The position numbers were made by a program, and so were the translations under genes. Positions 3,844-18,928 of a stretch of 64,000 bases of DNA are shown here, one piece after another. The notes under the pieces are model-generated. The model saw only the letters and a list, made by a program, of their open reading frames with translations, did not search any database and was not told where the DNA came from. Positions within the stretch are counted from its first letter, which is position 1, and each line of letters starts with the position of its first letter. This DNA is from Nevskia sp. (GTDB taxonomy: Bacteria > Pseudomonadota > Gammaproteobacteria > Nevskiales > Nevskiaceae): the NCBI RefSeq assembly GCF_021732705.1, contig NZ_JAKFUM010000009.1, positions 1 through 64,000 on the forward strand, in the 5' to 3' direction.

Positions 3844-4937
3844 AGCATTGGCTGGCCGGCGTCCGGGCGCTGGCCGGCAAGGAGTTGCTGCACATCGTCC
3901 GTGATCGGCTGACCCTGGCCCTGCTGATCAGCGTGCCGCTGGTGCAACTGCTGCTGTTCGGCACTGCGATCGACCTGCATCCGAAAGGCCTGCCGACGGC
4001 GCTGGTCGCACACGAGGACGACAGTTTCACGCAGCGCGCGGTCGCCGAGCTCGAAGCCGTCGGCTATTTCCGGATCGCCGCGCGCACGAACGACGCTGCC
4101 GTCGCCGAACGCTGGCTGGCCACCAGCCGTGTGCAGTTCGTGCTGGAACTGCCGCCGCAGTTCGGGTTCAAGGCCACGGTCGGGCAGAAGCCGGAAGTGC
4201 GGCTGATCGCGGATGCCACGGATCCGGTGGCGTCGATCGTCGCGACACAGGCGGCCGAAGCGCGCTATGCGCAGGCCGCTGCCGGCGACCGTCCGCTGCG
4301 GGTCGATATCGTCATCGACAAGCGCTACAACCCCGGCGGCAACTCGCGGCAATTCATCGTGCCCGGGCTGCTCGGCGTGGTGCTGACCCTGACCCTGGTG
4401 CTGCTCGGCGCATTCGCGCTGGTGCGGGAGCGCGAGTCCGGCAATTTCGAAAGCCTGCTGCTGCTGCCGATCCCGAAATCCGCGGTGCTGGTCGGCAAGG
4501 CAACACCGTACTTCGTGCTCGGCTGCTTGCTGTTCGCCGGCCTGCTGGCGATCTGCACGGTCTGGCTCGATCTGGCGTGGCGGAACCTGTCGTGGGCCTT
4601 GGCTGCCACCGTGATGCTGTTCGTTGCCGCCAACCTTGCGCTTGGGCTGACGCTGTCGCTGCTGGCGCGCAACCAGATGCAGGCGATGCAGCTCGGCGTG
4701 TTCTTCTATCTGCCGTCGATGCTGCTGTCCGGCTTCATGTTTCCGTTCCACGGCATGCCGGCGTGGGCCCGGGCGATCGGCGAACTGCTGCCGCTGACGC
4801 ACTTCCTGCGCGTGGTGCGCGGCACGCTGCTGAAAGGCCTGCCGGCGGAGGCCGTGCCGGCGCTGGCGTGGCCGATTGCGGTGTTCGCGATCATCCTGGG
4901 GCTGGCGGCGGCGGCGCTGTTCCAGCGGGCGCGCTGA
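3840..4937 (+). CDS. ABC-2 type permease
   Basis: 365 residues, ATGA overlap with the ATPase. Architecture is that of ABC-2 exporters such as YbhR/YhhJ: one N-terminal membrane segment (about residues 22-42), a periplasmic domain of about 130 residues, then five or so C-terminal membrane segments with the conserved VPGLLGVVL-type entry and a PFHGMPAWA-like loop. It should form a dimer with the neighbouring ATPase and export a hydrophobic or amphipathic molecule from the inner membrane. The last 47 bases overlap the 3' end of the convergent M28 peptidase gene. Confidence 0.88.
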   Translation: MKHWLAGVRALAGKELLHIVRDRLTLALLISVPLVQLLLFGTAIDLHPKGLPTALVAHEDDSFTQRAVAELEAVGYFRIAARTNDAAVAERWLATSRVQFVLELPPQFGFKATVGQKPEVRLIADATDPVASIVATQAAEARYAQAAAGDRPLRVDIVIDKRYNPGGNSRQFIVPGLLGVVLTLTLVLLGAFALVRERESGNFESLLLLPIPKSAVLVGKATPYFVLGCLLFAGLLAICTVWLDLAWRNLSWALAATVMLFVAANLALGLTLSLLARNQMQAMQLGVFFYLPSMLLSGFMFPFHGMPAWARAIGELLPLTHFLRVVRGTLLKGLPAEAVPALAWPIAVFAIILGLAAAALFQRAR

Positions 4938-7266
4938 CCGCAGCGGGCTGCACCATCATCCGCCGGAACACCCGTGTCACATCACCGTCCTGCGACGGCA
5001 CCGCGTTTGCCGGTCGTATGTCCCGCAAGGCCTTGCCGCTCGCCGGCAGGCCGTAGCTGCGATCACTGACGATCACCTCGAACGGCGCGCTGCTGCCGCG
5101 CTCGAAGGTCACGACCGAGCTGCGGCCGTGGGTCAGCGTGTGATCCGTCACGCAACGCCAACCACCGCGGGCGCTCGGCAAGTCTTGATCGCCGTTCTTG
5201 GCGTCGGCCGCCTGACCGGCGCTGGCGGCGATGACGCGCTTGAGACCCGCTTCCGGAGCGAAGCAGACGCTGGCGGTCGGCGCGCCGCGCACGGAAGACA
5301 AGGTGGCCTGGCCGTGTGTGACGCCGTCCTTCTGGTAGCTCAGGTTGATCGTGAACGTCGGCGCGGGCAGGTTTTCGGCAGGCGCCGGGGCCGAAAGTGG
5401 CTTACCGCGCGATGCCGGCAGCAGCGGCTTTTCGCGTCGAGCGAACGTCGCAACAGTCCCGAACGCCTGCGGCAGCACACCGGAATCCGGCCGGATCAGC
5501 CATTCCGCCTGGCCGCTGTCGGCATCGAGCGCGTATTCGATGTTGACGCGCTGCGGCGCATCGACGCTGTACGCCGGCTGCCGCGCCGCGATCATGGTGC
5601 CGATGACGGCGACGACGGCAAAACCGCCGACAGCGCGACGCTGCGCACCCAACCCGCAGGCCGCGATCACCGGCAGCAGCGGCGCGGCCATCCACGCGAT
5701 CAGCAGCGCGATCGCCGGCAGCAGTGCCAGGCCGAGGCTGGGATACAGGAACCAGACCGTCGGCAGCAGCACGATCAGGCTCACCGCGATCGTCAGCAGG
5801 TCGCGCACGGTGGAAGGGCGATCGTCGGCAAATGGTCGCAGGCCCCAGACCAGCACGGCGGTCGCCGGCAGCAGCAGCGCAAAGCTGGCGCCCGGAAGCA
5901 GGAACGCGGTCAGCAGCGACAACAGCTGCAAGATCAGTCCGAACGCGAGCGCGAGGCCGGCAGCCGAGACCCGCCGGCGAAACACGGCCGTGAGGCCGGC
6001 GAGCACGGTGGCGGTCCACGCCGTCATCGCGATCAGCAGCGGCAGCGGCCGTGCCGTCCATTGATAACCGGCGGCGCCCGGCGGCACGGCACCGACCGCT
6101 CGCAACACCTCCAGCAGGGTGGCCGCGGCAGCGGCGCTGGTGACGAGGCTCAGCACCACGAGGAACAGGCTCCAGCCGATCGGACCGAGCCCCACCGCCG
6201 GCCGCCCGGCAATCGCCAGTGCAAGCCAGAGCACGGCGACGATCCCGGCCAGCACGGGCGCCCATGACGCCGGCCACTGCAGCAGCGTGGCGGCCATCAG
6301 GTCGAGATAGACCGCATCGTGCGCCTGCTGGGTTTCGGGAGCGGCGACATCGGCATTCGCCAGCACCCGCAGCATGGCCAGCGCGTTGTCACCCTGATGC
6401 TGCACGCTGGCCAGCGACAGGTGCGCCAGATCGTCCAGCGGCGTGTGGTAATGCTGCACCGAGCCGGAGAACGCGAAGTTGTAACCCTGCCAGCCGTGGG
6501 CCTTGAATACGGTGAAGTCGGTATCGTTCGGCAGCAACTGGTAGGCGGTGTAGTAGATCGAGTTGGTGATCGGCAGTTGCACCTTCGGCGCGTACGCGCG
6601 CATCGCCCAGCGGTTGGCGCGGCCGGTCTCGAACAGCACGCTCGGCCCGGAACTGCCGCGCGCCTCGATATTGACGGCCGCTTTCACCTCTCTGGCCCAG
6701 CGATGCCCGTCGGCGAACACCCTCGCGCCGAACAGGCCGACTTCCTCGCCATCGCTCAGCAGCAGGATCACGGCGTGCCGCGGCGCCGGCGCGCTGCGCA
6801 GCGCACGGGCGATCTCGAGCACGGTGGCGACTCCGGCACCGTCGTCCGCCGCACCCGGGCCGGCGCCCACCGAGTCGTAGTGCGCCGCCATCAGCACCGC
6901 CGCACCGGGTTCGCGGCCATCGAGCCGGGCGACGAGGTTTTCGATCTGCGCGCAGTTGCCCCATTCGTCGCAGGCGCTGCCGATCTGCACTTCCGGACTG
7001 TAGCCAAGGTCGCGCAGCTGGCTCAGCAGCCGGTCGCGCACGGCCGCATGCGCAGGTGTGCCGATCGGATGCGGTGCACCGTCGCCGAGCATCGTCGCGA
7101 GCGCGGCCTGCGCGCGGGTGGCCGAGAATTCGGTCGCCGGCGCATCGGCGCCGCGCGGCGCGCTGGGCTGGTAGCGAATCGCGACGACGATCGCGAGCAG
7201 CGCAGCCAGCGCCAGAGCGATGACGAAGTTGCGGGCCGCGGCGGCGGCTACGGAGGCGGACGGCAT
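4891..7266 (-). CDS. M28 family zinc peptidase with large membrane domain
   Basis: 791 residues from ATG 7266; an upstream in-frame ATG at 7362 would add residues without a signal. An N-terminal membrane anchor (13-31) precedes a periplasmic aminopeptidase domain with the M28 ligands: H129 in AAHYDS, D141/D142 in AADDGAG, E174-E175 in DGEEVG and a later His in QHYHTPLDD. About ten membrane segments follow (residues ~350-570), then a ~200-residue soluble C-terminal domain. This layout matches the Fxna/ER-metallopeptidase 1-like group, which cleaves N-terminal residues from peptides. It is a single gene, convergent with the ABC permease. Confidence 0.85.
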   Translation of the reverse strand: MPSASVAAAAARNFVIALALAALLAIVVAIRYQPSAPRGADAPATEFSATRAQAALATMLGDGAPHPIGTPAHAAVRDRLLSQLRDLGYSPEVQIGSACDEWGNCAQIENLVARLDGREPGAAVLMAAHYDSVGAGPGAADDGAGVATVLEIARALRSAPAPRHAVILLLSDGEEVGLFGARVFADGHRWAREVKAAVNIEARGSSGPSVLFETGRANRWAMRAYAPKVQLPITNSIYYTAYQLLPNDTDFTVFKAHGWQGYNFAFSGSVQHYHTPLDDLAHLSLASVQHQGDNALAMLRVLANADVAAPETQQAHDAVYLDLMAATLLQWPASWAPVLAGIVAVLWLALAIAGRPAVGLGPIGWSLFLVVLSLVTSAAAAATLLEVLRAVGAVPPGAAGYQWTARPLPLLIAMTAWTATVLAGLTAVFRRRVSAAGLALAFGLILQLLSLLTAFLLPGASFALLLPATAVLVWGLRPFADDRPSTVRDLLTIAVSLIVLLPTVWFLYPSLGLALLPAIALLIAWMAAPLLPVIAACGLGAQRRAVGGFAVVAVIGTMIAARQPAYSVDAPQRVNIEYALDADSGQAEWLIRPDSGVLPQAFGTVATFARREKPLLPASRGKPLSAPAPAENLPAPTFTINLSYQKDGVTHGQATLSSVRGAPTASVCFAPEAGLKRVIAASAGQAADAKNGDQDLPSARGGWRCVTDHTLTHGRSSVVTFERGSSAPFEVIVSDRSYGLPASGKALRDIRPANAVPSQDGDVTRVFRRMMVQPAAVSAPAGTAPPPPAPG

Positions 7267-7406: not shown

Positions 7407-7482
7407 TGGTGGGTTGCCCCGGACTCGAACCGGGAACCTACTGATTAAGAGTCAGCTGCTCTACCGATTGAGCTAGCAACCC
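7407..7482 (-). tRNA. tRNA-Lys (anticodon CTT)
   Basis: 76 nt with encoded 3' CCA. The acceptor stem GGGTTGC/GCAACCC, D-arm, anticodon loop CTCTTAA and T-arm GGTTCGAGTCC are all present; anticodon CTT reads AAG. It is the second gene of a two-tRNA transcript, 17 bases after tRNA-His. Confidence 0.97.
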
Positions 7483-7499
7483 GCACGACATACTGAAAA

Positions 7500-7576
7500 T
7501 GGGGTGGACGATGGGACTCGAACCCACGACCTCTGGAATCACAATCCAGAGCTCTAACCAACTGAGCTACGCCCAC
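7500..7576 (-). tRNA. tRNA-His (anticodon GTG)
   Basis: 77 nt with encoded CCA and the histidine-specific C discriminator; a G encoded just 5' (complement of 7577) would give the extra G-1 found in bacterial tRNA-His. The anticodon loop TTGTGAT carries GTG. It is transcribed first, ahead of tRNA-Lys. Confidence 0.97.
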
Positions 7577-7722: not shown

Positions 7723-8502
7723 CTATTTCGCCCGGTAAAACTGCCCCGGGTCGAACAGGGCGGCGGGCAACGCGGTGTCGACCTGCTCGGTGCCGAGGCG
7801 AATCTCGGCCTGATTGCCCTCGCGCAAGTCCTTCAGCAGCAGCCGTCCGGCGCGCCAGCGATTGCCCGATTTCTGCACGCTGGCGGTGTCGACGGTCAAG
7901 GTTTTCCACGGCACGCCGCCGTACAGATCGGCACTCAGCGGCAGGCACCAGACCTCGTCGATCACCAGATCGACCCGGTCGTACAGGATGTTCGGATCGC
8001 TAGGCGGCAGGTAACGCCAGCGTTCGGCACTGCGGTTGCCGACCTTTTCCGGGCCGATCCGCGTCAGCTGCCCGCCGACCAGGCCGCTGAACAGGAATTT
8101 CAGATCGAACGCCGACAGGCCGCTGCCGAACAGCGATTGCGCCATCGTCGCGCCAACGACCTTGCGCACCTTGCGCACGCTCGGCAGATACAGGAAGAAC
8201 GCTTCCTGCCCATCCTTCGTCGTCAGCAGGTAGGCCGCACCGGCCAGATCGGCCGGGGCCGCGAGTTTCAGCATGCCGCGCTGATCGGCGCCGTCGCGCT
8301 GCCAGTACCAGCGGCCCGCCAGACGCCGGATCATGCCGGCGGCGTCCGACTGGGCGATGGTGATGTCCTGCGCCACCGAGCGTTCGAACAGGTTCGCGCG
8401 CAGACAGGCGCGCAGACCCGCCTCGTCCCGGGCCTCGACCGGTGCCGCCGCAAGCAGTGCCGCCGCGATGGCGGCAGCGCCCGCCCACCGCCGTCGCGTC
8501 AT
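7723..8502 (-). CDS. Outer-membrane lipoprotein-sorting (LolA-like fold) protein
   Basis: 259 residues with a signal peptide (residues 1-25, ending PVEA). The mature part matches the periplasmic outer membrane lipoprotein-sorting family (COG2834): an early W-W-x-R segment (RWYWQRDG), the FFLYLPSVRKVRKV block, the FGSGLSAFDL block and a C-terminal GTEQVDTALP...F. Members have a LolA-type half-barrel for a lipid or lipid-modified ligand and usually sit beside RND/MMPL pumps or DUF1302 proteins. Here it is the last gene of the seven-gene minus-strand operon, overlapping the DUF445 stop by ATGA. Family is well supported; ligand is unknown. Confidence 0.82.
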   Translation of the reverse strand: MTRRRWAGAAAIAAALLAAAPVEARDEAGLRACLRANLFERSVAQDITIAQSDAAGMIRRLAGRWYWQRDGADQRGMLKLAAPADLAGAAYLLTTKDGQEAFFLYLPSVRKVRKVVGATMAQSLFGSGLSAFDLKFLFSGLVGGQLTRIGPEKVGNRSAERWRYLPPSDPNILYDRVDLVIDEVWCLPLSADLYGGVPWKTLTVDTASVQKSGNRWRAGRLLLKDLREGNQAEIRLGTEQVDTALPAALFDPGQFYRAK

Positions 8503-9785
8503 TGCAGCAGCGACAGCGCCGCGGTGACGTGATCGGCCTTCTTCGCCAGATGCTCCATGACGAACACCTGCATTTCGCCGACCAGGAAGCCGAGCGAGGC
8601 ACCGACCGCGATCAGGATCCATTCATCCTGCTCGAACGCCGGATGCAGCAGGCCCTCGAACTCCTCGACCGACAGCTCGGTCATTTTCGAGGCCAGCGTG
8701 TTCTCGATCGCCATCGCATCGCCGGCGTAGGCCTCGATGTGCTTCAGCGTTTCCGGCAGCCGCTTCATGATTTCTTCCGCGACCAAACGCTTCATTTCCT
8801 GGTACTTGGTCGAGCCGACGGCGAACACGACGAACGGCTTGGCGATGCCGGACTGCTCGTCGACGACCTTCTGCACCTGCTTCTGCACCATGTTGAACAG
8901 GCGGTCCGACAGCGGGCCCTTCAGCACAGCGTCGATGATGTTGCGCGGCGTGACGATTTCCTTCGCGATCAGGCGTCCGTACTCCGCCGAAACCTCGGCG
9001 CGGCGCTTCAGGAACAGGCCCTGCCACTCGATCAGGCCACCGAGATACTTGGTGGGGTGCTTGGGGTTGAACACCATCTTCAGCGCCAGCCAGTCGGTGA
9101 ACCAGCCGGTGAACAGGCCGAAGATCGGCATCACCAGCGGGTTCTGCGTCACCGCCCAGGTCACCGCCTGCACCACGCCGATCAGGAAGCCGAAGTAGAT
9201 GCCGGAGTTGCGGATGAACTTGAATTCGCCGCTGCCGGCTTCGAGGAAGATGCGGTTCAGCAGCGGCTTGTCGCGCAGCAGGTTCGAAACGACCATGTCC
9301 TTGAGATCAAAGACCGAGTCGATGTTCTGCTTGATGTCGACCATGATCGCGCGAACGATGTTCGGCGCCTCATGCTGGATGCGGCTGATGATCAGCCGCT
9401 TGACCGCTTCCGGCGCCGCTTCCCACAAGCCCGGCGAATAGACCGCCGCCACTTCGCGGGTGATGTCCTCGACTGCCGCCAGCAGCGGCTTCTCGATTTC
9501 GCGCGCAATGCGGTCCGGATCGAGCTTGTTGAAGATGTCTTCCGGCTTGATCAGGCGCGAGGTCATGGTGTCGCAGGCGATCGACGCCATCGTCGCCGCC
9601 TTGCGCGGCACGATGCCCTGCCAGCCGAGAAACGGCTTGATGCCGACGAACTCGATCGGCTGGAACATCATCTTGATCGCGACGATCTTGGTGACGTAGC
9701 CGATCAGCGCCGCAACGAACGGCATCGACAGGTACAGCAGCCAGTTCAGCTGCACGTCCGCGACGATCTGTGCCCAGCTTTGCAT
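8499..9785 (-). CDS. DUF445 family membrane protein
   Basis: 428 residues, with a strong GGGAAGGG ribosome site just upstream of ATG 9785. It has the DUF445 hallmarks: an N-terminal membrane segment followed by GYVTKIVAIKMMFQPIEF, the same element repeated at GWFTDWLALKMVFNPKHP, two long helical domains between and after them, and a C-terminal hydrophobic segment (WILIAVGASLGFLVGE). DUF445 proteins are inner-membrane proteins with long helical extensions and no agreed function. Its place in an envelope operon next to a LolA-like carrier supports a role in transport or tethering, which is inference. Confidence 0.88.
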   Translation of the reverse strand: MQSWAQIVADVQLNWLLYLSMPFVAALIGYVTKIVAIKMMFQPIEFVGIKPFLGWQGIVPRKAATMASIACDTMTSRLIKPEDIFNKLDPDRIAREIEKPLLAAVEDITREVAAVYSPGLWEAAPEAVKRLIISRIQHEAPNIVRAIMVDIKQNIDSVFDLKDMVVSNLLRDKPLLNRIFLEAGSGEFKFIRNSGIYFGFLIGVVQAVTWAVTQNPLVMPIFGLFTGWFTDWLALKMVFNPKHPTKYLGGLIEWQGLFLKRRAEVSAEYGRLIAKEIVTPRNIIDAVLKGPLSDRLFNMVQKQVQKVVDEQSGIAKPFVVFAVGSTKYQEMKRLVAEEIMKRLPETLKHIEAYAGDAMAIENTLASKMTELSVEEFEGLLHPAFEQDEWILIAVGASLGFLVGEMQVFVMEHLAKKADHVTAALSLLQ

Positions 9786-9867
9786 TGCCCTTCCCCTTTC
9801 GCGTGATCCCGCTTTTTCGTGCCGGCGCTTCGATCAGCGCCGCTTCATTGTTCGCTGCCGCGTCGGC

Positions 9868-10629
9868 TCAGTCTTCGGTGACGCGGCAGGCTTCCCAGAG
9901 ATTGCGCCCCAGCTCGGAAATCTTCAGCGTGCGGCGCTTGATCTGGCTGCGCTGGCCGCCGGCCTTCATCTGGTTGATCAGCTTGCGCAGCAAATCGTCG
10001 GTTTCCAGGATTTCGTACTTGGTGGTCATCGTGTAGTCCTCCGGCCCGGTCTCGACCAGCCCCGCCGCCATCAGCCGCTGGATGTAACCGCGCGTCATTT
10101 CAACGAGTTGCACGCCCGCCGCGCGGCCGACGGAGCTGGTGTTCTCGAGCACCGAGTGCGACACCATGCCGAGCTTCGACAGCGCCACCAGATTCACCAG
10201 CGGATAGGCCGAGCCATCCGACAATGCCGACAGGATGCGCGCCTCGTCCGGCAGCAGGTTGCGGATCAGGATGCTGTAGTACGCGAGTTCCGCCTGTTCC
10301 TTGGTCTGTTCGGATGAGGTCTGCAACAGCTGCCGCAGCAGTTCGCCCGGCTCGCGCAGGTCCCGGGTCGGCGCGTGCGTGGCCTCGGTGGTGTCCATCG
10401 AAAACGCCACCACCTGCACCGTCTGCGAGGTTTCGCCCTCGATCCGGTCCAGGCGCTGCTTCAGCTCGCTGAGCAGGCGCTTCTCGACCTTGTCCATCTG
10501 TTCCTGCACCAGCGCGCCACCCGGCATCCGCGCCAGCAGGCGGTTGCCGATCGAGGCCGGCGTGGCGCCGTCTTCGCCGACGGCTTCCATCGCGCGCTGC
10601 CAGATCGACGGGGGTTTCTTCTTGCTCAT
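9868..10629 (-). CDS. Abi-alpha (DUF4393)-like cytosolic protein
   Basis: 253 residues, no signal peptide. An N-terminal helical region with a coiled-coil look (residues 40-70, EQMDKVEKRLLSELKQRLDRIE) is followed by a helical domain in which PDEARILSALSDGSAYPL and a C-terminal winged-helix-like half (ISELGRNLWEAC) resemble the Abi-alpha/DUF4393 family. That family was named from phage abortive-infection proteins, but many chromosomal members have no proven defence role. It is the only apparently cytosolic protein in the envelope operon, 16 bases after the upstream gene, so it may regulate or energise the assembly. The family call is moderate. Confidence 0.6.
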   Translation of the reverse strand: MSKKKPPSIWQRAMEAVGEDGATPASIGNRLLARMPGGALVQEQMDKVEKRLLSELKQRLDRIEGETSQTVQVVAFSMDTTEATHAPTRDLREPGELLRQLLQTSSEQTKEQAELAYYSILIRNLLPDEARILSALSDGSAYPLVNLVALSKLGMVSHSVLENTSSVGRAAGVQLVEMTRGYIQRLMAAGLVETGPEDYTMTTKYEILETDDLLRKLINQMKAGGQRSQIKRRTLKISELGRNLWEACRVTED

Positions 10630-10645
10630 GGGGCTCGATGCAGGC

Positions 10646-11410
10646 TCAGGGCGTGGGGGGCGATGCGGTTGGGCTGGACGTCGGCGACGCGCGCTTCGGC
10701 AGCGCCGGGTCCGGCGCCTGCTCGAGCCGCAGCGTGTCGACCTCCAGCTTCAGATCCGAATGCTGGATGATGACGGGGATCGGGGTCGTCGGTGAAGTCA
10801 CCGCCAGACCGAACTTGGCGAGGATCGGCGTCGTCACCTCGCGCTGCGCCTTGATCCGGGTGGTCAGCACCGTGTCCACCGGCGCGGCGATGGTCTGGTT
10901 CAGCTTCAGGCCGATCGGCCCGTGAAACTTGACCCGCAGCTGGGTGTCGATCGGCACGACGAACTTCACCGGCTGCTCGAACTGCAGCGGAACCCGGCCG
11001 GAAAACGCCACGTTCCGCAGACGCTTGACGTTCTGGTACAGGAAATCGGTGCGGCCCTTGATGTCGGCAAACGTGTCGACGGGAATCAAGCCCTTGTATT
11101 CGATGGTGAATTTCAGCGGAACGACAGTATCCAGATCGATGTCGGCGGTGTAGTCGCCTTCGATCGGCAGGCTCAGCGTCTGCTTGAACGGCACGGTCGC
11201 GTCGATGTAGCCGTCGAGGTTGATCGTGACATCGTTGGTCGCCTGGGCGTTCGCCGTGAACGTCGGCGGTAGCGTGATCAGCGCCGGCTGGTTGCTGACG
11301 GTCAGGCCGACGATCAGATACGAGTACAGCCAGAAGCCGAACAGGCCGCAGGCGACCAGCAGCCCGCCGCCGCCGATCAGTCCCGCCAGCCAGGCCAGTA
11401 GCTTCTTCAC
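10646..11410 (-). CDS. Membrane-anchored beta-repeat protein, paralogue 2
   Basis: 254 residues, GTG start inside the stop of the upstream paralogue (GTGA). Residues 1-32 are one membrane anchor (GGGGLLVACGLFGFWLYSYL). The rest is a chain of short alternating polar/hydrophobic strands broken by VP and IP (TVPFKQTLSLPIEG, VVPLKFTIEY, RVPLQFEQPVKFVVPID), with no catalytic motif. The NQPA-x-I-x-x-P start of the exported part and the run D-x-x-I-x-x-TVP are shared with the 11407-12129 protein, so the two are tandem paralogues. The pattern suits a long beta-taco or beta-jellyroll facing the periplasm. I do not recognise a named family. The C-terminus is Pro/Ser/Thr rich. Confidence 0.75.
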   Translation of the reverse strand: MKKLLAWLAGLIGGGGLLVACGLFGFWLYSYLIVGLTVSNQPALITLPPTFTANAQATNDVTINLDGYIDATVPFKQTLSLPIEGDYTADIDLDTVVPLKFTIEYKGLIPVDTFADIKGRTDFLYQNVKRLRNVAFSGRVPLQFEQPVKFVVPIDTQLRVKFHGPIGLKLNQTIAAPVDTVLTTRIKAQREVTTPILAKFGLAVTSPTTPIPVIIQHSDLKLEVDTLRLEQAPDPALPKRASPTSSPTASPPTP

Positions 11411-12129
11411 GGTGCCGGCGCTGGCGCAGGCGCCGGATTGCCATGCTGGCCAAGGCTCAGCAGCACGGTGCGCAGCGGCAGCAGCAGGTCGGACTCGACG
11501 ATGACGATCTTCGCCGGGTCCGGAATGGTGATGCTCGCTTCGAGCGCCGAGCGCACCGGCACGCTCATCTGGCTCTTGATCGGAATCGTGGTCGAGATGT
11601 CGGCCTTCAACGGCACCCGCAATGCCTGCTTGAGCCGCGCCTGCACTGGGGCCTTGAACTTGAGCCGCACCAGCTGATCGACCGGAATGTTCAGGCTGAC
11701 CGGCACCGTCGCCTTGACCGGAATCTTTCCTCGCAGCGGCAGGTCGTGCTTGTCGCCGAGGATCTCGGCCTTGATCACGGTATCGATGTCGAGAATCTGG
11801 TCGATCTGGATCTTGTCCCGCACCGGCACGTTGATCTTGATCGGCACATCGCCGTCGAAATCGGCCATCACGTTCAGCGTCTCGGCGATCGGGATCGTGA
11901 TCATCTGATCGACCGGCACGGTGGTGGTGATGCTGGTGTCGAGCGAGATCTCGAGATTGTTCAGCACCTGCGCGGAGACCCGCAGCGGCTCCGGAATGAT
12001 CACGGTCGCCGGCTGGTTGGTCAGCAGCAGCCGCGCATCGACATTGCGGAACACCCAGACGCCGACCACCACGCCGGCGGCGACGCCGATGATCGCGATC
12101 AGCCCGATTGCCGCCAGCAGCGTTTTCAT
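11407..12129 (-). CDS. Membrane-anchored beta-repeat protein, paralogue 1
   Basis: 240 residues from ATG 12129. One N-terminal membrane anchor (residues 5-27) is followed by about 195 residues of regularly spaced amphipathic strands, nearly every one containing VPV, IPI or VPL (TTVPVDQMITIPIAETL, KIPVKATVPVSLNIPVDQL, STTIPIKSQMSVPV), and an APAPAPAP tail. The arrangement resembles bridge-like lipid-transport folds in pattern only; no family is recognised. The gene lies 14 bases after the DUF1302 stop and overlaps its paralogue by four bases, so both are made together. Confidence 0.78.
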   Translation of the reverse strand: MKTLLAAIGLIAIIGVAAGVVVGVWVFRNVDARLLLTNQPATVIIPEPLRVSAQVLNNLEISLDTSITTTVPVDQMITIPIAETLNVMADFDGDVPIKINVPVRDKIQIDQILDIDTVIKAEILGDKHDLPLRGKIPVKATVPVSLNIPVDQLVRLKFKAPVQARLKQALRVPLKADISTTIPIKSQMSVPVRSALEASITIPDPAKIVIVESDLLLPLRTVLLSLGQHGNPAPAPAPAP

Positions 12130-12143
12130 CGTCGTGACCTTTC

Positions 12144-14333
12144 CTAGAACTTGTAGGCGATGCTGGCGGAGACGAAATCGCGATCGCCCAGCGTGTTGCG
12201 CTTGCCGCCGCCGAAGAAGAAGGCGCCGACCAGATTGACGTCGAAGTCGCCGTAGTTGAAGCGGAAATCGGCAACGCCGAGCTTGCGGCCTTCGATGAAG
12301 TTTTCGGCCAGACCCGGCGAGACGCCGGTGACGTCGTGGGTGAAGACCAGGAATGGCGTGACATCCAGCCCCGGAATGCCGACATCGGCGTAGTGCAGCA
12401 GCGCGCCGAGCCGGTAGCCGAGCGAGAACGGCGTGACATAGCCGCCGACATTGCGGATCGGATTGATCCGCAGCGCGTTGTTGGTATCGAACGCACCCGG
12501 CCCGCCGTGGGTATCGGTGCCCGGCCCTTCGAACTGCAGGCGCGACTTCGACGGCAGGTCGATCACCCAGATGTTGGTCGCCTCGAACAGCAGTGCTGCG
12601 TCCTTGGTGCCCAGGAAATGCGTGTTGCCGAACACCTTGGTCAGGCCGAGCGACGCCTGCTGCACGGCGAGCCGTTCGTAGCCGCGGATGTACGAACCGG
12701 GCACGACCTCGCCCGGCGTGCCGCCGCGGTAGGCAGTGATGAAGTCAGGAATCGCCGTGCGCGAGCCGGGCACGGTCGTGCCGAGCACGTTGTTGGCGCC
12801 GAGCAGCGCCTGCAGGGTGCCGATCGCACCCTGCAGGTTGCCGCTGGAAGCCCCGATGATCGCCAGCGCGTTGGTCGGGTCCTGCAGCGCGGCGATCAGA
12901 TCCGGCAGCGAGTTGCCGGCCGTGAACAGCGGGATGTCCTGCCGCGGCAGCGCCGGCTGCAGCGCGGCGAACAGCACGTCCTCGATGTCGACCTGTACCG
13001 GCTGGTTCGGCCGAAACGCGAACTCGCCGCGCACGGCGATGCCGGACAGCAGGGTCGAGAAGCTGGCGCCGAACAGATGGATGTTCTCGGGATAGTCGAG
13101 AAAATAACGCGCGGTATCGAGCGGCACCGCCTCGCGCTGATGCGTGCCCGGCACGCCGCAGGCGCTGATGAACGACACCAGCGAGGTGGCATCGATGCCG
13201 GACGGATTGCCCTCGCGCCGCGCGCAGCTGGCATCGGACGCATAGGCGCTCGCGCTCGGAATGCGCGAGTGGTAGTTCGAGTAGTAGAAACCGAGCTCGG
13301 AGCCGCCGAGCAGTTCCGGATGCCAGTAGAACGCCGCTCCGTACTGGCCCTGATTGCTCGGCGTCTGGTTCGGCGCGCGGCGCAGGGTGAAGCTGGTTTC
13401 ACTGACCAGCGCCAGGATGTCGTTCGCCGGCGTGCCGATCTGCAGCGGGTCGTACGGCGCCTTCGCGAACGGCGCGATGATGCCTTCATTGCCGGTGACA
13501 TGATTGCTGGCGTTGAAGAACGACAGATACGAGCCGCGTGCCGGAATGCCGACCGGCCGCCATTCGAACTGGTAGAACGCCTCGAAGCTCAGGCTGTCGT
13601 TGATCGGCCCCTTGGCGATCGCGAGTCCCACCGGGCGGTAGACCTCTTCCAGCGTGCCGCCCGGCCGCGCCAGGTTGTTCACGTCTGGCGGGTTCAGGAA
13701 GTTCAGGCTGCCTTGCGTGGCGAATGTCGCTTCACCCCAAACCAACCGCTGCCGGCCGATGCTGACATCGATCGGCTGGCCTTCGACGTCGAACGTGTCC
13801 TGCACGAAAGCGTCGAGCAGCTGCACGTCGTAGCCGATCTGCTGGATCGTCTTGATGTCGCGCTTGCTGCGCACCGGCACGCCCGGTCCACCCGGCGTCA
13901 CGATCTGGTTCGGATGGTTCTCCTTCAGCGTGGCGTTGATGTAGTCGTAGAACGCCAGCGTGCCGACTTCGAACTTGAAGTTGTTGCGGTGCAGCTGGAA
14001 GCGCGAGTTCCACTTGACCGGCGAGGCGATGAAATCGCCCTTGTCGTAGTTCAGGTTGCCGTCGTCGTAGACCGAATTGCGCGCACCCGGCGCGGCCAGA
14101 TAGCGATCGTTCGGCTCGCGGTTGTCCGGGCTGACCGACAGGCACTCGTCCTGCGCGCACAGGCTCGGATCGAGATTCGACTTGCCGACGAGAAACGGAT
14201 CGCGATTCTCGATGCGCACCGCGGTGCCGATCGAAACCCGGTTGTTCCACTCGTGTTCCCACTCCGCAGCCGATGCCAGCAGCGGCAGCGCGGCGAGCAA
14301 TGGCAGACCTCGCAGCATCCGTTCAATTCGCAT
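12144..14333 (-). CDS. DUF1302 outer-membrane beta-barrel protein
   Basis: 729 residues. Signal peptide MRIERMLRGLPLLAALPLLASA, then a long barrel with many amphipathic strands and a terminal Phe (ASIAYKF), the usual signal for the outer-membrane insertion machinery. The GRQRLVWGEATF block, the EAFYQFEW strand and the NPPDVNNL segment are characteristic of DUF1302. The start at 14333 has GGAG eight bases upstream and overlaps the upstream gene by 11 bases. DUF1302 proteins are common beside DUF1329/LolA-like and RND genes in steroid, lipid and hydrocarbon-degrading bacteria and are thought to be outer-membrane channels. The usual DUF1329 and RND partners are absent; a LolA-like protein ends this operon instead. 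Confidence 0.88.
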   Translation of the reverse strand: MRIERMLRGLPLLAALPLLASAAEWEHEWNNRVSIGTAVRIENRDPFLVGKSNLDPSLCAQDECLSVSPDNREPNDRYLAAPGARNSVYDDGNLNYDKGDFIASPVKWNSRFQLHRNNFKFEVGTLAFYDYINATLKENHPNQIVTPGGPGVPVRSKRDIKTIQQIGYDVQLLDAFVQDTFDVEGQPIDVSIGRQRLVWGEATFATQGSLNFLNPPDVNNLARPGGTLEEVYRPVGLAIAKGPINDSLSFEAFYQFEWRPVGIPARGSYLSFFNASNHVTGNEGIIAPFAKAPYDPLQIGTPANDILALVSETSFTLRRAPNQTPSNQGQYGAAFYWHPELLGGSELGFYYSNYHSRIPSASAYASDASCARREGNPSGIDATSLVSFISACGVPGTHQREAVPLDTARYFLDYPENIHLFGASFSTLLSGIAVRGEFAFRPNQPVQVDIEDVLFAALQPALPRQDIPLFTAGNSLPDLIAALQDPTNALAIIGASSGNLQGAIGTLQALLGANNVLGTTVPGSRTAIPDFITAYRGGTPGEVVPGSYIRGYERLAVQQASLGLTKVFGNTHFLGTKDAALLFEATNIWVIDLPSKSRLQFEGPGTDTHGGPGAFDTNNALRINPIRNVGGYVTPFSLGYRLGALLHYADVGIPGLDVTPFLVFTHDVTGVSPGLAENFIEGRKLGVADFRFNYGDFDVNLVGAFFFGGGKRNTLGDRDFVSASIAYKF

Positions 14334-14808
14334 GGCGAGCTCCGTCTCGGGCGGTATCGGCATCGCCGCGCCTGCGCCGCGGCTTCCAGAACTGGATGCG
14401 CGGCAGTTCGATGATTTCCGTGCGATCGACGATGGTCTCGGTCTGTCCTTTCAAGGTGCTGACGTGGTCCATCAGCGTCTCCATGTGCACGACGATCCGG
14501 AAGATCGACAGGATCACTTCCAGCGCCACCCGCACCACGACGACGCCCGACACGAACAGCACCGGCATGATCAACAGCGTCCAGACGAGCCCCAGCGCCA
14601 GCGAGTACCCGAACACCAGCGCGGCCAGATAGAGATTGATCGCCGCCACGCCGGCAACGCACAGCACGTAGATGGCCGGTGCCATGCGGGTGGTGACGAT
14701 GGTGCGCAGTTGCACGTCGGTGAGGCCGACGAGGACATCGACCAACTCGGCCCGCACCGCCTGCCAGCTGGACACGGCTTCGTTCGAGCCCTGCGCTTCC
14801 ACCTTCAT
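14323..14808 (-). CDS. DUF4282-like inner-membrane protein
   Basis: 161 residues from ATG 14808; longer upstream frames have no signal or homology-like content. Two membrane segments (about residues 48-70 and 73-95), flanked by an acidic N-terminal region and a basic cytoplasmic tail (FWKPRRRRGD), match small DUF4282-type proteins. It opens the seven-gene minus-strand operon and overlaps the DUF1302 gene by 11 bases. Function is unknown; as the inner-membrane start of an envelope operon it could anchor the complex. Confidence 0.7.
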   Translation of the reverse strand: MKVEAQGSNEAVSSWQAVRAELVDVLVGLTDVQLRTIVTTRMAPAIYVLCVAGVAAINLYLAALVFGYSLALGLVWTLLIMPVLFVSGVVVVRVALEVILSIFRIVVHMETLMDHVSTLKGQTETIVDRTEIIELPRIQFWKPRRRRGDADTARDGARHAN

Positions 14809-15354
14809 GACGAGTCCCCCGCTCGTGTCCTGTCTCGACGGCTGCTGCCGCTTCTGTTGTTGTGCGGCCGGTCGCCATGCGCGCCCGCCGTCTGCTTGGA
14901 TGCTCCCGCGCTCCCGCGCGGGCCGCTGCCGATGATGACGGCAATACCGATCGCCACGCGACATCGCCATGAAGCCGCTGATCCGATCGTCATCGAAGCC
15001 TACACACGACTGTTACATTCGGCAATGACAGTGTCCTGATGTGCAATCGCTCGGAAAGTCGTTCGTCGCGACCGGACCGCATGCCGTGCCGCCCGCCTCG
15101 ACGGTGTTGAGGAAAAAACCACAACATCCTGTTTGGATTGTATTTTTAGCGCGGACCACGATCACGAGGCGCTGCGCCGTCCGCCTCGCCGTGCGTCCGA
15201 CGCCACTAGCCGACATCCGCTTGCAACCGATTGCTGCGACCCTTGCCAGCCGATTCGTCGGGCTGTTACTCTGCACTTACCGTCCGGTCAGTCAGCAATT
15301 GTTGACCAAACCGATCCCGTGCTTTCCGCTGCACATCCGACCGCGTCCGTCTCG
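14809..15354. other. Divergent intergenic region with regulatory sites
   Basis: About 545 bases between the outward-reading envelope operon and the TetR-RND operon. No gene is supported. It includes an A/T-rich patch near 15110-15152 (ggaaaaaaccacaac, tgtatttttagcg) that is the likely promoter core, a small inverted repeat GACA-G-TGTC around 15028, and the TetR-type palindrome at 15276-15291. Both operons may be controlled from here. Confidence 0.55.
15276..15291. promoter_or_regulatory. Probable TetR operator
   Basis: CTTACCGTCCGGTCAG is an imperfect palindrome (CT-x-ACCG-TC-CGGT-x-AG), 64 bases upstream of the TetR start. ACCG/CGGT arms of this kind are usual for AcrR/NalC-like repressors of RND pumps, so it is likely the autoregulatory site. 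No footprint is implied. Confidence 0.5.
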
Positions 15355-16014
15355 ATGACCCTTCCCGCCGGCGCGCGCTCGATTCTCGACGCTGCCACGA
15401 CCCTGTTTTCCCGTACCGGCTTCGATTCCGTGTCGCTGGCGGAAATCGCGTCGATGGCGGGTGTCTGCAAGGCCAACATCTTCCATCACTTCGAATCGAA
15501 GGAAGCGCTGTATCTCGACGTGATGCGCGAAGCCTGCAAGGGCCACGCGGAATTCGCCGAGAGCCTGCTGCAGCTGCCGTTGACCAGCACCGAAAAGCTG
15601 CGCCGCCTCGTCGCGTTCGAGTTCGCCGACATGTTCGAGCACGAATCGCGCACGCAGCTCGTGTTCCGCGAAGTGCTGAACGCCGGCAGCGGCAAGGGTC
15701 GGCAGCTGGCCGAACAGGTCTTCCAGCGCAATTGTTTCGCGGTGATCGCGCTGTTTCAGGAAGGAATCGACCGGGGCGAGTTCCGCGCCGATCTCGATTC
15801 CGGCATCACCGCCTGGATGCTCGGCGCCAGCACCATGATGTTCTTCCAGAACCGCAACATCCTGCCGCACATGCCGGGCATGGGCGGCTGCAACAGTCCG
15901 GCCGATTTCGCCGAAAAGATCGTCAACACGATGCTCCAGGGCCTGCTGGCGGCGCCAGACGCCTCCGGAACCGCCGAGGCAGCATCGCCATCGTCATCAA
16001 GGAAGCCGACGTGA
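15355..16014 (+). CDS. TetR/AcrR family repressor of the RND pump
   Basis: 219 residues from ATG 15355. The N-terminal helix-turn-helix is canonical: AATTLFSRTGFDSVSLAEIA, MAGVCKANIFHHFESKEALY. The C-terminal ligand-binding domain is helical with a TetR_C-like pattern. It is the first gene of a four-gene unit, and its TGA shares one base with the ATG of the outer-membrane factor (TGATG), so repressor and pump are translated together. A palindrome upstream is the likely operator. The inducer is unknown. Confidence 0.88.
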   Translation: MTLPAGARSILDAATTLFSRTGFDSVSLAEIASMAGVCKANIFHHFESKEALYLDVMREACKGHAEFAESLLQLPLTSTEKLRRLVAFEFADMFEHESRTQLVFREVLNAGSGKGRQLAEQVFQRNCFAVIALFQEGIDRGEFRADLDSGITAWMLGASTMMFFQNRNILPHMPGMGGCNSPADFAEKIVNTMLQGLLAAPDASGTAEAASPSSSRKPT

Positions 16015-17543
16015 TGAGTTCCCGTTTTCAATCGCTGCGCCGTCGCAGCCTGCAGGCAACCGGTGTCGCGCTGGCCGTGCTGACCGCCGGTTGCGCGCTC
16101 GGTCCGGATTTCGCGCCGCCCGCCGCACCCGACGATGCGCGCTTCACGGCCCTGCCGCTGCCCGAGCGGACCGCGAGCAGTGCCGCGCCGAATGGCGAGG
16201 CGCAGGCGTTTCTCGCCGGCCGACCGTTGCCGGATCGCTGGTGGACGCTGTTCGGGTCGCCGAAGCTCGATGCGCTGGTCGAGCAGGCCTTGGCGGCCAG
16301 CCCGACCGTCACGTCGGCGCAGGCCGCGCTGCGCGTGGCGCAGGAAACCTTCCGCGTGCAGCGCGCCACGCTGTTTCCGTCGTTCGATGCGACGTTCGAT
16401 GCGTCGCGCCAGAAGATCGATACCGGCAGCTTCGGCAATCCGGGTGGCGGCGCGGCGATCTACAACCTCTACAACGCCTCGGTCCGGGTCAATTACGGTC
16501 TCGACATCTGGGGCGGTACCCGGCGCGGCATCGAAGCCCAGCGCGCCGCGACCGAATACCAGCGCTACCAGCTCGAAGCGACCTACCAGACGCTGATCGC
16601 CAACGTCATCACGACGGCGGTGCGGGCGGCGGAGCAGCGCCTGCTGCTGCTCGGCCAGGAACAGGTGATCGCAACGCAGGAGTCGCTGCTCAAGGTCACC
16701 CGCGCCCGCTTCGAAAGCGGCGCCATCGCCCGCAGCGAATTGCTGGCGCTGGAATCGGCGCTGGCCACCGAGCGCAGCAAGCTGCCGGGCTACAAGCTGG
16801 GCCTGACCCAAGCCCAGAACCAGCTCGCGGTCTACCTCGGCAAGCTGCCGAGCGAACAGCCGCCGATCGAGGTCGACCTGTACGAGCTGAAGCTGCCGCA
16901 GACGCTGCCGCTGTCGCTGCCGTCCGAGCTGGTGCGCCAGCGGCCGGACATCCGCGCCGCCGAAGCGACGATGCATCAGGCGTCCGCGAACATCGGCGTG
17001 GCCACCGCCAACCTGCTGCCGCAGATCGTGCTGACCGGCAGCATCGGCACGCAGTCGTCGGTGCTGGATGACCTGTTCAAGGGCAACATCTTCTCGATCG
17101 CCAGCTCGGTGACCCAGCCGCTGCTGCATGCGGGCGAGCTCACCGCCAAGCGCCGCGCCGCGATCGCCACCTACGACCAGACCGCCGCCGACTATCGCGA
17201 CACGGTGCTGAACGCGTTCCGCAACGTCGCCGATTCGCTGCGCGCACTGGAAACCGATGCCGAGTACCAGCAGGCGCAGTTCGCGGCGATGTCGACGTCC
17301 GAGCAAAGCCTGCGGCTGATCGAAAGCCAGTACCGGCTCGGTGCCGGCAGCTATCTCGACGTGCTGACCGCCCAGAACCAGTACACGATCGCGCGCGCCG
17401 GCTACATCGTCGCGATCAGCAGCCGGCTGACCGATACCGCCGCGCTGTTTCAGGCTCTGGGCGGAGGCTGGACCACGCGTGATCCGGCGGCCGATTCGCC
17501 GCTCGATCCGTCGAATCCCGTCAGCGCCGCCGCCGCGCCGTAA
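16014..17543 (+). CDS. NodT-type RND outer-membrane factor, lipoprotein
   Basis: 509 residues. A lipoprotein signal with the lipobox LTAGC puts the acylated Cys at residue 27. Two OEP repeats follow, with WWTLFGSPKLDALVEQAL near residue 78, the NYGLDIWGG strand and the ELVRQRPDIRAAEATMHQASANIGVA block typical of NodT/OprM channels. As a trimer it would form the outer-membrane duct for the adaptor and permease that follow. The start is set by the overlap with the TetR stop. Confidence 0.93.
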   Translation: MSSRFQSLRRRSLQATGVALAVLTAGCALGPDFAPPAAPDDARFTALPLPERTASSAAPNGEAQAFLAGRPLPDRWWTLFGSPKLDALVEQALAASPTVTSAQAALRVAQETFRVQRATLFPSFDATFDASRQKIDTGSFGNPGGGAAIYNLYNASVRVNYGLDIWGGTRRGIEAQRAATEYQRYQLEATYQTLIANVITTAVRAAEQRLLLLGQEQVIATQESLLKVTRARFESGAIARSELLALESALATERSKLPGYKLGLTQAQNQLAVYLGKLPSEQPPIEVDLYELKLPQTLPLSLPSELVRQRPDIRAAEATMHQASANIGVATANLLPQIVLTGSIGTQSSVLDDLFKGNIFSIASSVTQPLLHAGELTAKRRAAIATYDQTAADYRDTVLNAFRNVADSLRALETDAEYQQAQFAAMSTSEQSLRLIESQYRLGAGSYLDVLTAQNQYTIARAGYIVAISSRLTDTAALFQALGGGWTTRDPAADSPLDPSNPVSAAAAP

Positions 17544-17607
17544 TCCTCATCTCACGAATCGTTTCGCAGCGCACCGCCGCACGGATCGCGCACTTTTGGA
17601 GAATCAC

Positions 17608-18888
17608 ATGCGCTGGCTCAAGCTCTTCGGCATCGTCATCGTCATCCTGCTGATCATCGGGGGCGTCAAGGCGTGGCAGATCCAAAAGGTCATCGCCGGC
17701 TTCGCCTCGGCACCGGAACCGCAGGTCGCGGTGTCGACGCTGACCGCGTCGTACGCGGACTGGCAGCCGGAACTGACCGCCGCCGGCTCGCTACGCGCGA
17801 TCCGCGGCGTCAACCTGACGACGGAAGTCGCCGGCCTGGTGCAGACCGTCGCCTTCGACTCGGGTCGCGAGGTCAAGGCCGGCGAGCGCCTTGTGCAGCT
17901 CAATGCCGATACCGACATCGCCAAGCTCGACGCGCTGAAGGTCGCGCTGAATCTGGCCGAGATCAATCTCAAGCGCGACCGGAACCAGCGCGAGGCGGAT
18001 GCGATCAGCCAGGCGCAGCTCGACAGCACCGAATCGGCCCTCGCCAGCGCCAAGGCCGCCTATGCCGAGCAGGCCGCACTGGTCGCCAAGAAGTCGATCC
18101 GCGCGCCGTTCGATGGCCGCCTCGGCATCACCACCGTCAATCGCGGCCAGTACCTGAATCCGGGCGATCCGATCGTGACCTTGCAGCAGCTCGACCCGAT
18201 CCACGTCGACTTCACGTTGCCGCAGCAGGCGCTGACCCAGCTCAAGGTCGGCCAGAAGGTGCGCGCGAAGAGCGACAGCTTTCCGGATGCCGAATTCACC
18301 GGCGAAATCGCCGCGATCAACCCGCTGGTGGATACCGACACCCGCAACATCCAGGTGCTGGCCACCCTGCGCAACCCGCAGAAGCGGCTGCTGCCCGGCA
18401 TGTTCGCGACCGTCAACGTCATCGCCGGCGCCCCGGCCCGGTATCTGACGCTGCCGCAGACCGCCGTCACCTTCAATCCGTATGGCGAGACGGTGTTCGT
18501 CGTGGTGCCGCGCGGCAGCGAGAAGGCGCCGGACCCGAACACGCCGCCCGATGTGCAGCGCACGCAGGCGCTGGCCGCGATCGACGAAAAGATCAAGGCC
18601 AAGCAAGCGGCCGAGGGCAAGCCGGAACCTGAAGCGAAGGCCGCCGCAGCGTCGTCAGCCGAAATCGCCACCGGCAAGCCGGCCGAGCCACCGCCGCTGG
18701 TCGCGCGGCAGGTGTTCGTCAAGGTCGGGCCGACCCGCGGCGATCAGGTCGCGATCCTGTCGGGCCTGAAGGAAGGCGATGTCGTGGTCACCAGCGGCCA
18801 GCTGAAGCTCAAGACCGGCGCCCGGGTCGAAATCCACAACGAGGTGGTGCCGGCCAACGCGCCGGATCCGAAGCTGGTCGACGAATGA
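17608..18888 (+). CDS. RND periplasmic adaptor (HlyD/MexA family) with an inserted charged segment
   Basis: 426 residues, GGAG just upstream of ATG 17608. N-terminal anchor (residues 5-22), lipoyl halves around LTTEVAGLV and SIRAPFDGRLGI, helical hairpin between them, and beta-barrel block LDPIHVDFTLPQQAL are standard for the adaptor that joins the inner-membrane pump to the outer-membrane factor. Unusual is an Ala/Glu/Pro/Lys-rich stretch of about 60 residues (about 303-364) inserted in the membrane-proximal domain between the FVVVPRG strand and VFVKVGPTRGD; family members are normally short there. The insert looks helical or disordered. Confidence 0.92.
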   Translation: MRWLKLFGIVIVILLIIGGVKAWQIQKVIAGFASAPEPQVAVSTLTASYADWQPELTAAGSLRAIRGVNLTTEVAGLVQTVAFDSGREVKAGERLVQLNADTDIAKLDALKVALNLAEINLKRDRNQREADAISQAQLDSTESALASAKAAYAEQAALVAKKSIRAPFDGRLGITTVNRGQYLNPGDPIVTLQQLDPIHVDFTLPQQALTQLKVGQKVRAKSDSFPDAEFTGEIAAINPLVDTDTRNIQVLATLRNPQKRLLPGMFATVNVIAGAPARYLTLPQTAVTFNPYGETVFVVVPRGSEKAPDPNTPPDVQRTQALAAIDEKIKAKQAAEGKPEPEAKAAAASSAEIATGKPAEPPPLVARQVFVKVGPTRGDQVAILSGLKEGDVVVTSGQLKLKTGARVEIHNEVVPANAPDPKLVDE

Positions 18889-18928
18889 GCCGCGCCGACG
18901 CCGTTGATCCAGGGACGATGACCTCCTC

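Follow-up and report, generated by a model that had tools for sequence, protein, structure and literature searches.

Introduction

The way in which hydrophobes get through the aqueous periplasm is an active research question, and the described systems closest to the locus analysed here are the transporters that combine DUF1302, DUF1329, YCF48 and RND proteins. AmeABCD acts on monoterpenes and is a proposed exporter (PMC6394551), and PP_0765/0766 act on Tween 20 (PMC10866462). BstABC, a sterol system (PMC10942540), was also considered. Another comparison is offered by the trans-envelope bridges (Lpt, the AsmA-like TamB/YhdP, and the long MlaD of Veillonella), whose shared idea is a beta or tube element anchored in the inner membrane that shields the lipid on its way through the periplasm (PMC10665443), and a third by the pairs of LolA_like (PF17131) proteins with MMPL-type RND pumps. 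In the part of the literature surveyed, no assigned function was found for DUF445 or DUF4282, and few proposals for DUF1302.

Gene Organization and Conservation

The window, meaning the whole analysed stretch of 64,000 nt of Nevskia sp. DNA, contains seven consecutive open reading frames, A to G, running from 14808 to 7723 on the minus strand; ORF calling thus bears out the seven-gene run reported by a first-pass annotation, and five of the genes have a Pfam family:

A: 14323..14808, minus strand, DUF4282 protein, 161 aa (PF14110, E=4e-8, over the Pfam cut-off)
B: 12144..14333, minus strand, DUF1302 outer-membrane barrel, 729 aa (PF06980, E=1e-136)
C: 11407..12129, minus strand, predicted giant amphipathic beta-hairpin protein with a TM anchor, 240 aa (no Pfam match)
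D: 10646..11410, minus strand, paralogue of C that shares its hairpin signature, 254 aa from a GTG start (no Pfam match)
E: 9868..10629, minus strand, Abi_alpha protein, 253 aa (PF14337, E=1e-31)
F: 8499..9785, minus strand, DUF445 membrane protein, 428 aa (PF04286, E=5e-15)
G: 7723..8502, minus strand, LolA_like periplasmic carrier, 259 aa (PF17131, E=3e-20, 73 bits against a cut-off of 30)

Judged by eye from the sequences, A is taken as an inner-membrane protein, G appears to have a signal peptide, and E seems to be free of any obvious membrane segment. Three of the six junctions overlap, rather than the four first annotated: A/B by 11 bases (with the DUF1302 start taken as the ATG at 14333), C/D by 4 bases (with the start of D taken as the GTG at 11410) and F/G by 4 bases, the remaining gaps being 14 bp (B/C), 16 bp (D/E) and 82 bp (E/F). 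Neither sigma-70-like promoters (1 against 1.1 in shuffles) nor terminators (5 against 4.8) rose above the shuffled sequences.

The first-pass annotation had also described DUF1329 and an RND pump as missing, and this stands in so far as probes for DUF1329 (two of them), YCF48 and MMPL-type RND proteins gave 0 matches at E 1e-3 among the 372 ORFs of at least 80 residues in the window; it does not stand for RND pumps in general, since a divergent TetR-OEP-HlyD-AcrB set, with an AcrB-type pump at 18929 and an OEP of its own, adjoins the cassette at 15133-22021. Among the 19 cassette loci mapped, several of them cut by contig ends, that set lies beside the cassette in L032 only, and a coupling of the cassette to the neighbouring pump was rejected because the adjacency is not conserved.

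The search across genomes returned strong conservation of the gene set. C is present in 26 of the 85 genomes of the order; all seven genes lie in one locus in 13 of these 26, and at least six in 19. The order A to G is collinear in 9 C-bearing genomes and several other gene orders occur elsewhere, with A adjoining B in most cassette loci and C and D side by side in the uncut loci among those mapped. The seven genes are, then, a true unit, conserved and rearranged as a set. In the genus itself C was found in 8/18 genomes, some of these genomes being incomplete, and in the class in 3/369; a restriction of C to the order, which the latter figure could suggest, is ruled out by C hits in Acinetobacter. 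There the genes flanking a C-D pair are gapA and obgE, the 20 kb examined around the pair carries no annotated DUF1302, and DUF445 lies elsewhere; tblastn of the Acinetobacter records with E or G returned nothing at E 1e-3. A weak C-like match (28%) was also obtained in a contig of Anaerolineae, bacteria usually thought to be devoid of an outer membrane. Because C-D pairs and DUF445 occur apart in Acinetobacter, and because DUF445-Abi_alpha pairs occur elsewhere without a barrel, gene content indicates that the cassette is a modular assembly and not an indivisible machine.

Proteins C and D

A query with C matches D at 30% identity, so that the two are paralogues, and a Pfam search with E values as high as 10 returned no family for either; hence no AsmA/TamB, MCE or Lpt domain was detected in them. 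What characterizes both is an alternation of polar and apolar residues that runs unbroken over approximately residues 41-123 and 127-207, that is, two arms of ~80 residues, with one phase flip at the tip. The hairpin score is 357 for C against a shuffle maximum of 163, and 302 for D against 165 (0/2000 shuffles in each case), and when 238 called ORFs were ranked by alternation, the top 31 were all relatives of C or D. The tip-finder failed in 1/13 C rows (L041) and 1/15 D rows (L045), each of which has a one-residue change near the tip in the alignments; the Acinetobacter relative of C keeps the phase flip and that of D is without it. By sequence, therefore, C and D look like very long amphipathic hairpins with a single apolar face, and form a predicted family of two-gene giant-hairpin proteins without Pfam match.

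Structure prediction covered C, the hairpin of D resting on the signature. The AlphaFold (AF2) model consists of a transmembrane helix at 2-29 and of strands at 65-123 and 126-184 in one very long hairpin, whose strands pair symmetrically about a single tip, weak outer strands included. Its confidence is low (pTM 0.22), with ~43 residues per arm at a pLDDT above 70, and with a block-mean pLDDT above 70 only at 81-170 of the hairpin and under 60 in the rest of it. Depending on what is counted, the C arm would be ~43 residues long (the part with pLDDT above 70), 59 (the strands drawn in the model), 80 (the stretch of alternating residues) or 93 (once the weak outer strands that pair symmetrically are added). 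As the rise of a flat beta-strand is 3.3 angstrom per residue, arms of this kind in C and D would measure ~140, 195, 265 or 305 angstrom respectively, and the longer of these values, for flat strands, would cross the periplasm.

Several possible kinships of C were considered. There is no PDB sequence relative at E up to 10, and no AsmA, MCE or Lpt chain is among the rows shown in the fold search with this low-confidence model. A relationship with the hairpins of pore-forming toxins was set aside as a likeness of shape, the model being of low confidence and the fold matches weak (Z up to 3.0), and a weak PADLOC match that paired 70 residues of C with a type II nicking endonuclease (18.8 bits, 1.3e-4) was taken as chance. 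One homologue of C (L045) gave a sub-threshold match to LEA_2 (1.5e-3), whereas the two proteins of the window gave none.

The Barrel, the Carrier and the DUF445-Abi_alpha Pair

In the tree of B, from which rows of < 430 aligned residues were dropped (for example the cut B of L034), the cassette barrels form one clade of 21 rows with support 100/99, and the eight further DUF1302s in the comparison fall outside it; B has no PDB sequence relative at E up to 10. With AmeABCD-type systems the cassette has in common a DUF1302 barrel and a periplasmic carrier of LolA fold, and it differs from them in its separate barrel clade, in the addition of C, D, E, F and A, and in a window without match to the MMPL pump, YCF48 or DUF1329. 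The same genome contains three DUF1302/DUF1329/YCF48/RND operons (L162, L165, L166), and a protein X, found near the cassette in five genomes, follows one of them. In L175, a locus of a relative, a single run reads DUF1302-DUF1329-YCF48-MMPL-X-DUF445. Three relatives (L039, L040, L104) have DUF1329 itself in the neighbourhood of the cassette, and in Panacagrimonas it adjoins the cassettes; among the 24 other cassette loci, YCF48 gave no match and MMPL a sole one (L102, 117 residues, 40 bits).

G matches the solved LolA-like chain 3bk5 at 1.4e-5 and DUF1329 (PF07044) at 1e-3, with 18.9 bits, below the cut-off of 23.1, which places it near the DUF1329/LolA group. It belongs to PF17131, as do the LolA_like members of the MMPL pairs, one of which (L168) is in the same genome; unlike these, G is encoded with DUF445 and no RND pump, and it is 31% identical to the L168 protein. 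In rearranged loci the identity of G falls to 24-33%, and the gene there may be a different LolA_like recruit; it is encoded on the opposite strand in L039 and L040, and the LolA_like relative of L168 is 35% identical to the L039 copy.

DUF445 is found in 78/85 genomes of the order, and in the tree of F (rows of < 330 aligned residues dropped) the cassette copies are not one clade, with at least 6 label changes. With its cassette copies scattered in this way, F may be a partner of wider use and not a component specific to the cassette. Among 36 non-cassette F loci (one set of 16 and another 20 picked by eye from the order-wide DUF445 list), E adjoins DUF445 in 16, one pair being on opposite strands, and Abi_alpha-DUF445 adjacency also occurs in Tsukamurella and Marinobacter without the cassette; what is particular here is the joining of such a pair with barrel, carrier and hairpins. 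In five of the 36, DUF445, with or without Abi_alpha, is near acyl-CoA synthetase/FadE, enoyl-CoA hydratase or WS/DGAT genes, a descriptive count, since these neighbours were spotted after the fact and the probes were picked from the same loci. A resemblance of DUF445 to TTYH-like lipid-transfer membrane proteins is a lead only: Foldseek paired F with TTYH3 at prob 0.97 and E 1.9e-3 but with a TM of 0.2, the VIA fold comparison reached no more than Z 4.2 while unrelated rows went up to 5.2, and F had no TTYH match by sequence.

Discussion

The reading that we favor, at a probability of roughly 0.6, is that the operon would be a pump-less trans-envelope conduit for hydrophobic molecules, a variant of the DUF1302/DUF1329/YCF48/RND systems. 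It is favored because the gene set is conserved, the barrels form a single clade, the hairpin signature is present, and X, DUF445 and DUF1329 tie the cassette to RND-type operons, whose relatives act on hydrophobes, while some DUF445 loci lie near lipid genes. It is weakened by the low confidence of the C model, the lack of monophyly of F, the separation of C-D and F in Acinetobacter and the D relative without flip there, the C-like hit in Anaerolineae, and the matches of E to a defence model and of C, weakly, to a restriction enzyme. The conduit proposed in the first-pass annotation thus retains its foundation in the conserved set, the hairpins and the parts common with RND-type operons, and loses some of it in that C/D, DUF445 and E-F pairs also occur apart.

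What we infer as to location, oligomerization, transport, direction and substrate can be put as follows. The cargo would be a lipid, fatty acid, hydrocarbon, wax ester or sterol-like molecule; B would be the outer-membrane barrel, and G would take over the role of DUF1329 as periplasmic carrier. Each of C and D would be anchored by an inner-membrane helix and extend as a single very long amphipathic beta-hairpin; paired or oligomerized, with the continuous apolar faces turned inward, they would stand in for the YCF48/RND parts and offer a sheltered route or scaffold in the direction of B. At the inner membrane, F would receive or deliver the molecule together with A, and E would dock on F in the cytosol and link it to metabolism. 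As no pump or ATPase is recognised among the seven, the flow would be downhill, and its direction might be inward, pulled by activation in the cytosol, for instance by acyl-CoA synthesis. A stricter version, in which C/D are a periplasm-spanning tube or groove that replaces RND/YCF48 and, without any pump, delivers to or from a DUF445 lipid-handling module, would be a new architecture; this version we hold only tentatively. In contrast to the Lpt, TamB/YhdP and MlaD bridges, C/D are predicted as one giant hairpin each, and Pfam finds no AsmA, MCE or Lpt domain in them.

The hairpins could instead be a structural tether, their apolar faces zipped into a solid rod by which B, G and F are held in register, with G alone shuttling the hydrophobe and no continuous conduit. 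Simple pairing of C with its adjacent partner D could bury the apolar face, G has the fold of a soluble carrier, and the C model is silent on any lumen; a rod, however, would seem not to call for an apolar face kept in register without a break over ~40 positions in each arm, and there are a single C-like gene near a FadL-type barrel (L048) and another, cut by the contig end, that adjoins MMPL-like and LolA-like genes (L047), all of which makes the tether unlikely. A little less doubtful is that the cassette would serve envelope maintenance, moving phospholipids or outer-membrane lipids as TamB/YhdP or Mla do, rather than nutrients or xenobiotics: the near universality of DUF445 in the order and the position of the Acinetobacter C-D pair, which has gapA and obgE as neighbours, no DUF1302 annotated in the 20 kb around it and DUF445 elsewhere, speak for it. 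The patchiness of the cassette even within the genus is nevertheless unlike a housekeeping route, and those DUF1302 relatives for which there are data act on exogenous hydrophobes.

An exporter of toxic hydrophobes coupled to the divergent pump set would agree with the proposal made for AmeABCD and with the presence of an AcrB-type pump next door, and is improbable given that the neighbourhood recurs in a single mapped locus and that the pump set brings its own outer-membrane channel. Very improbable indeed is a role in phage defence or abortive infection, with Abi_alpha at the core of the unit and the envelope genes serving as its targets or sensors. E does match, besides PF14337, the candidate defence model PDC-S47 (PADLOC, 49 bits) and phrog_2232, abortive infection in Enterococcus is the reported effect of the founding Abi-alpha protein (PMC6356687), and C has its weak PADLOC match; the other cassette proteins, however, have no PHROG match at E 0.01, no phage gene is annotated in the E-F stretches read in Tsukamurella and Marinobacter, and the repeated pairing of E with DUF445 leads us to give the defence reading of E less weight.

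Whichever of these functions is the true one, the cassette ties DUF445, DUF4282 and DUF1302 to each other and to known transporters of hydrophobes. As C-D and DUF445 are also found in Acinetobacter, the idea of a pump-less conduit may lend itself to tests in a laboratory species that is easy to handle.

Organization of the operon and its flanks

The seven genes of the cassette run on the minus strand from 14808 to 7723, in the order A to G (ORF calling and Pfam).

Genes and flanks of the operon (coordinates in the window)
A: minus, DUF4282 (Pfam); overlaps B by 11 bases
B: minus, DUF1302 barrel (Pfam); gap of 14 to C
C: minus, no Pfam family; overlaps D by 4
D: minus, no Pfam family; gap of 16 to E
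E: minus, Abi_alpha (Pfam); gap of 82 to F
F: 8499-9785, minus, DUF445 (Pfam); overlaps G by 4
G: minus, LolA_like (Pfam)
7407-7576, minus: tRNA-His and tRNA-Lys, directly behind G
15133-22021, plus: TetR, outer-membrane efflux protein (OEP), HlyD-type fusion protein and AcrB-type RND pump, divergent, on the A side

The first-pass annotation had described overlaps of 4 or 11 bases at four junctions; the sizes stand, but the overlaps number three of the six junctions, and the start codon of D is a GTG within the 3′ end of C. Among 19 mapped loci, the TetR-OEP-HlyD-AcrB set is shared beside the cassette with locus L032 only. In a scan of 12 loci, tRNA-Lys also lies behind the cassette in L032, L033, L035 and L036, and tRNA-His in L032 and L035; a fixed site adjoining a tRNA could be a hot spot of gain and loss.

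Conservation of the set

A profile search found C in 26 of the 85 genomes of the order Nevskiales (8/18 within the genus), and in 3 of 369 sampled genomes of the class at large, the own genome being one of the three. Among the named matches (15 loci) are Nevskia, Solimonas, Panacagrimonas, Polycyclovorans and a Salinisphaeraceae bacterium, along with one weak match in Anaerolineae. A search for the set in other genomes, as had been proposed, finds it conserved: a single locus holds all seven genes in 13 of the 26 C-bearing genomes, and 19 of the 26 have six or more of them together, the window included in both counts. Of the seven smaller loci, four (G009, G015, G040, G063) are contigs cut at an edge, and the others keep C-D-E-F (G026), B-C-D (G070) or a lone C (G037). 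The order itself is retained less strictly, being exactly A-G in 9/26 genomes and rearranged elsewhere: A-E-F-B-C-D-X in Panacagrimonas, with G on the other strand and X a protein of about 440 residues; D-C-B-A against E-F-G in L042 and L104; and B-C-C-D-E-F-G in L044 and L103. In several rearranged loci G is distant (24–33% identity). It is chiefly this co-location, outlasting rearrangement, that speaks for a joint function of the genes. No published work on this gene set was found by title or abstract opening among open-licence PubMed Central papers.

The hairpin proteins C and D

Both proteins begin with one N-terminal helix, followed by an unbroken alternation of apolar and polar residues (family means, about residues 41–123 in C and 43–127 in D), a single phase flip, and a second arm that extends to about residue 207. 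Mean hydropathy is +2.0 to +2.6 on the apolar face and −1.8 to −2.3 on the polar face, which on average is net acidic in arm 1 and net basic in arm 2, with exceptions. C has a two-arm score of 357 against a shuffle maximum of 163, and D one of 302 against 165 (0/2000 shuffles as high in each case); and among 238 called ORFs of at least 120 aa (window 1-24000 and L032-L050) the top 31 by alternation are all C or D relatives, the next ORF scoring 1.59. A lone C-like hairpin gene (L106, 7621-8592; alternation 2.14) adjoins two genes that by eye resemble LptF/LptG.

An AlphaFold model of C, built with 29 aligned C and D rows, has main strands at 65–123 and 126–184 and weak ones at 49–52/197–200, 39–43/206–210 and 31–36/213–218, all pairs summing to 249, as expected for one continuous hairpin. 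Since block-mean pLDDT is 71–82 at residues 81–170 and below 60 elsewhere in the hairpin, and pTM is 0.22, trust is limited to the inner hairpin and does not extend to the overall shape or an oligomer. Fold searches with this model gave only a weak likeness to long-hairpin pores.

Relation to RND-type hydrophobe transporters

The DUF1302 barrel is shared with AmeABCD-type systems, whose other components, DUF1329, YCF48 and an MMPL-type RND, have no match to our probes anywhere in the window, in agreement with the earlier observation that DUF1329 and an RND pump are missing from the operon. Members of this type described in the literature handle hydrophobes: AmeABCD acts with monoterpenes (PMC6394551), and PP_0765/PP_0766 are needed for the use of Tween 20 (PMC10866462). 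Of the seven DUF1302 genes in the own genome, three are grouped with DUF1329, YCF48-like and MMPL genes (L162, L165, L166) and a fourth, more divergent, has an MMPL gene nearby (L167); another (L164, 1495-10853) is divergent from a set identified by eye as TetR/efflux/RND, resembling the arrangement in the window.

The L166 operon is followed by X, 43–44% identical to the protein beside the Panacagrimonas cassettes; Pfam gave nothing above cut-off for X, which by eye would be a solenoid. In G022 (L175) one minus-strand run comprises DUF1302, DUF1329, YCF48, MMPL, X and DUF445, and its gaps, where they can be measured, do not exceed about 60 bp; a stretch of about 8 kb in G025 (L183) contains DUF1302, DUF1329 and DUF445; in G004 (L179) F and an adjoining MMPL gene are convergent; and in Panacagrimonas a DUF1329 gene adjoins the cassette, an AraC-like gene intervening in L039. 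Through these intermediate loci, F and X are tied to the RND-type systems. Beside the cassette of L104 (D-C-C-B-A / E-F-G) lie, on the minus strand at 349-6384, a DUF1329 fused to TPR repeats and MotA/ExbB and ExbD genes, which might hint at proton-driven energization in that lineage.

The barrel and DUF445 differ in history. The cassette DUF1302s form one clade (21 rows, support 100/99), outside which fall the eight others in the tree, including the barrels of the own genome's three RND-type operons; the cassette DUF445s are dispersed among other copies, with at least six label changes. B is thus the stable core of the cassette, and F, together with E, resembles a module that was acquired or swapped on several occasions. 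Of the 36 F loci outside the cassette, 16 have E next to F; the two are also adjacent in Tsukamurella and Marinobacter. One cluster (L184, 5835-10569) joins two DUF4282 genes, X, Abi_alpha and DUF445 without barrel or hairpins.

A putative conduit without a pump

Several observations stand against reading the seven genes as a conduit. In Acinetobacter baumannii a C-D pair lies between gapA and obgE (L191, 9923-11343; L198, 6783-8203), apart from DUF445, and no E or G matches were found in the Acinetobacter records; these are filed as plasmid or phage, yet look chromosomal, and one labels C 'MFS transporter'. The weak Anaerolineae match (L065, 9887-10525) is a C-like amphipathic protein, 28% identical over part, with an alternation over 80 residues of 1.59. 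Moreover, E matches a candidate defence model, and F is not specific to the cassette, DUF445 occurring in 78/85 genomes of the order. A lone C-like hairpin gene (L106, 7621-8592; alternation 2.14) adjoins two genes that by eye resemble LptF/LptG.

In the non-cassette loci, DUF445, with or without Abi_alpha, lies near acyl-CoA synthetase and FadE (L133, L139), enoyl-CoA hydratase (L131) or WS/DGAT (L140, L143), in total 5 of the 36 fetched, and L138 and L170-L173 have PF10118 hydrolase genes close to F; as the probes were drawn from the same loci, this is an after-the-fact pattern rather than a test. The F model matched human TTYH3 with a Foldseek probability of 0.97 but a TM of 0.2; the TTYH family is implicated in lipid transfer (PMC12328215).

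We read the operon as a probable hydrophobe conduit without a pump, in which B would be placed in the outer membrane, G would be the carrier, C and D would shield the path or serve as a scaffold, A and F would sit in the inner membrane, and E would be located in the cytosol. Flow would be inward, a guess prompted by the acyl-activation gene neighbors and by the fact that no energy source was recognized among the seven genes.
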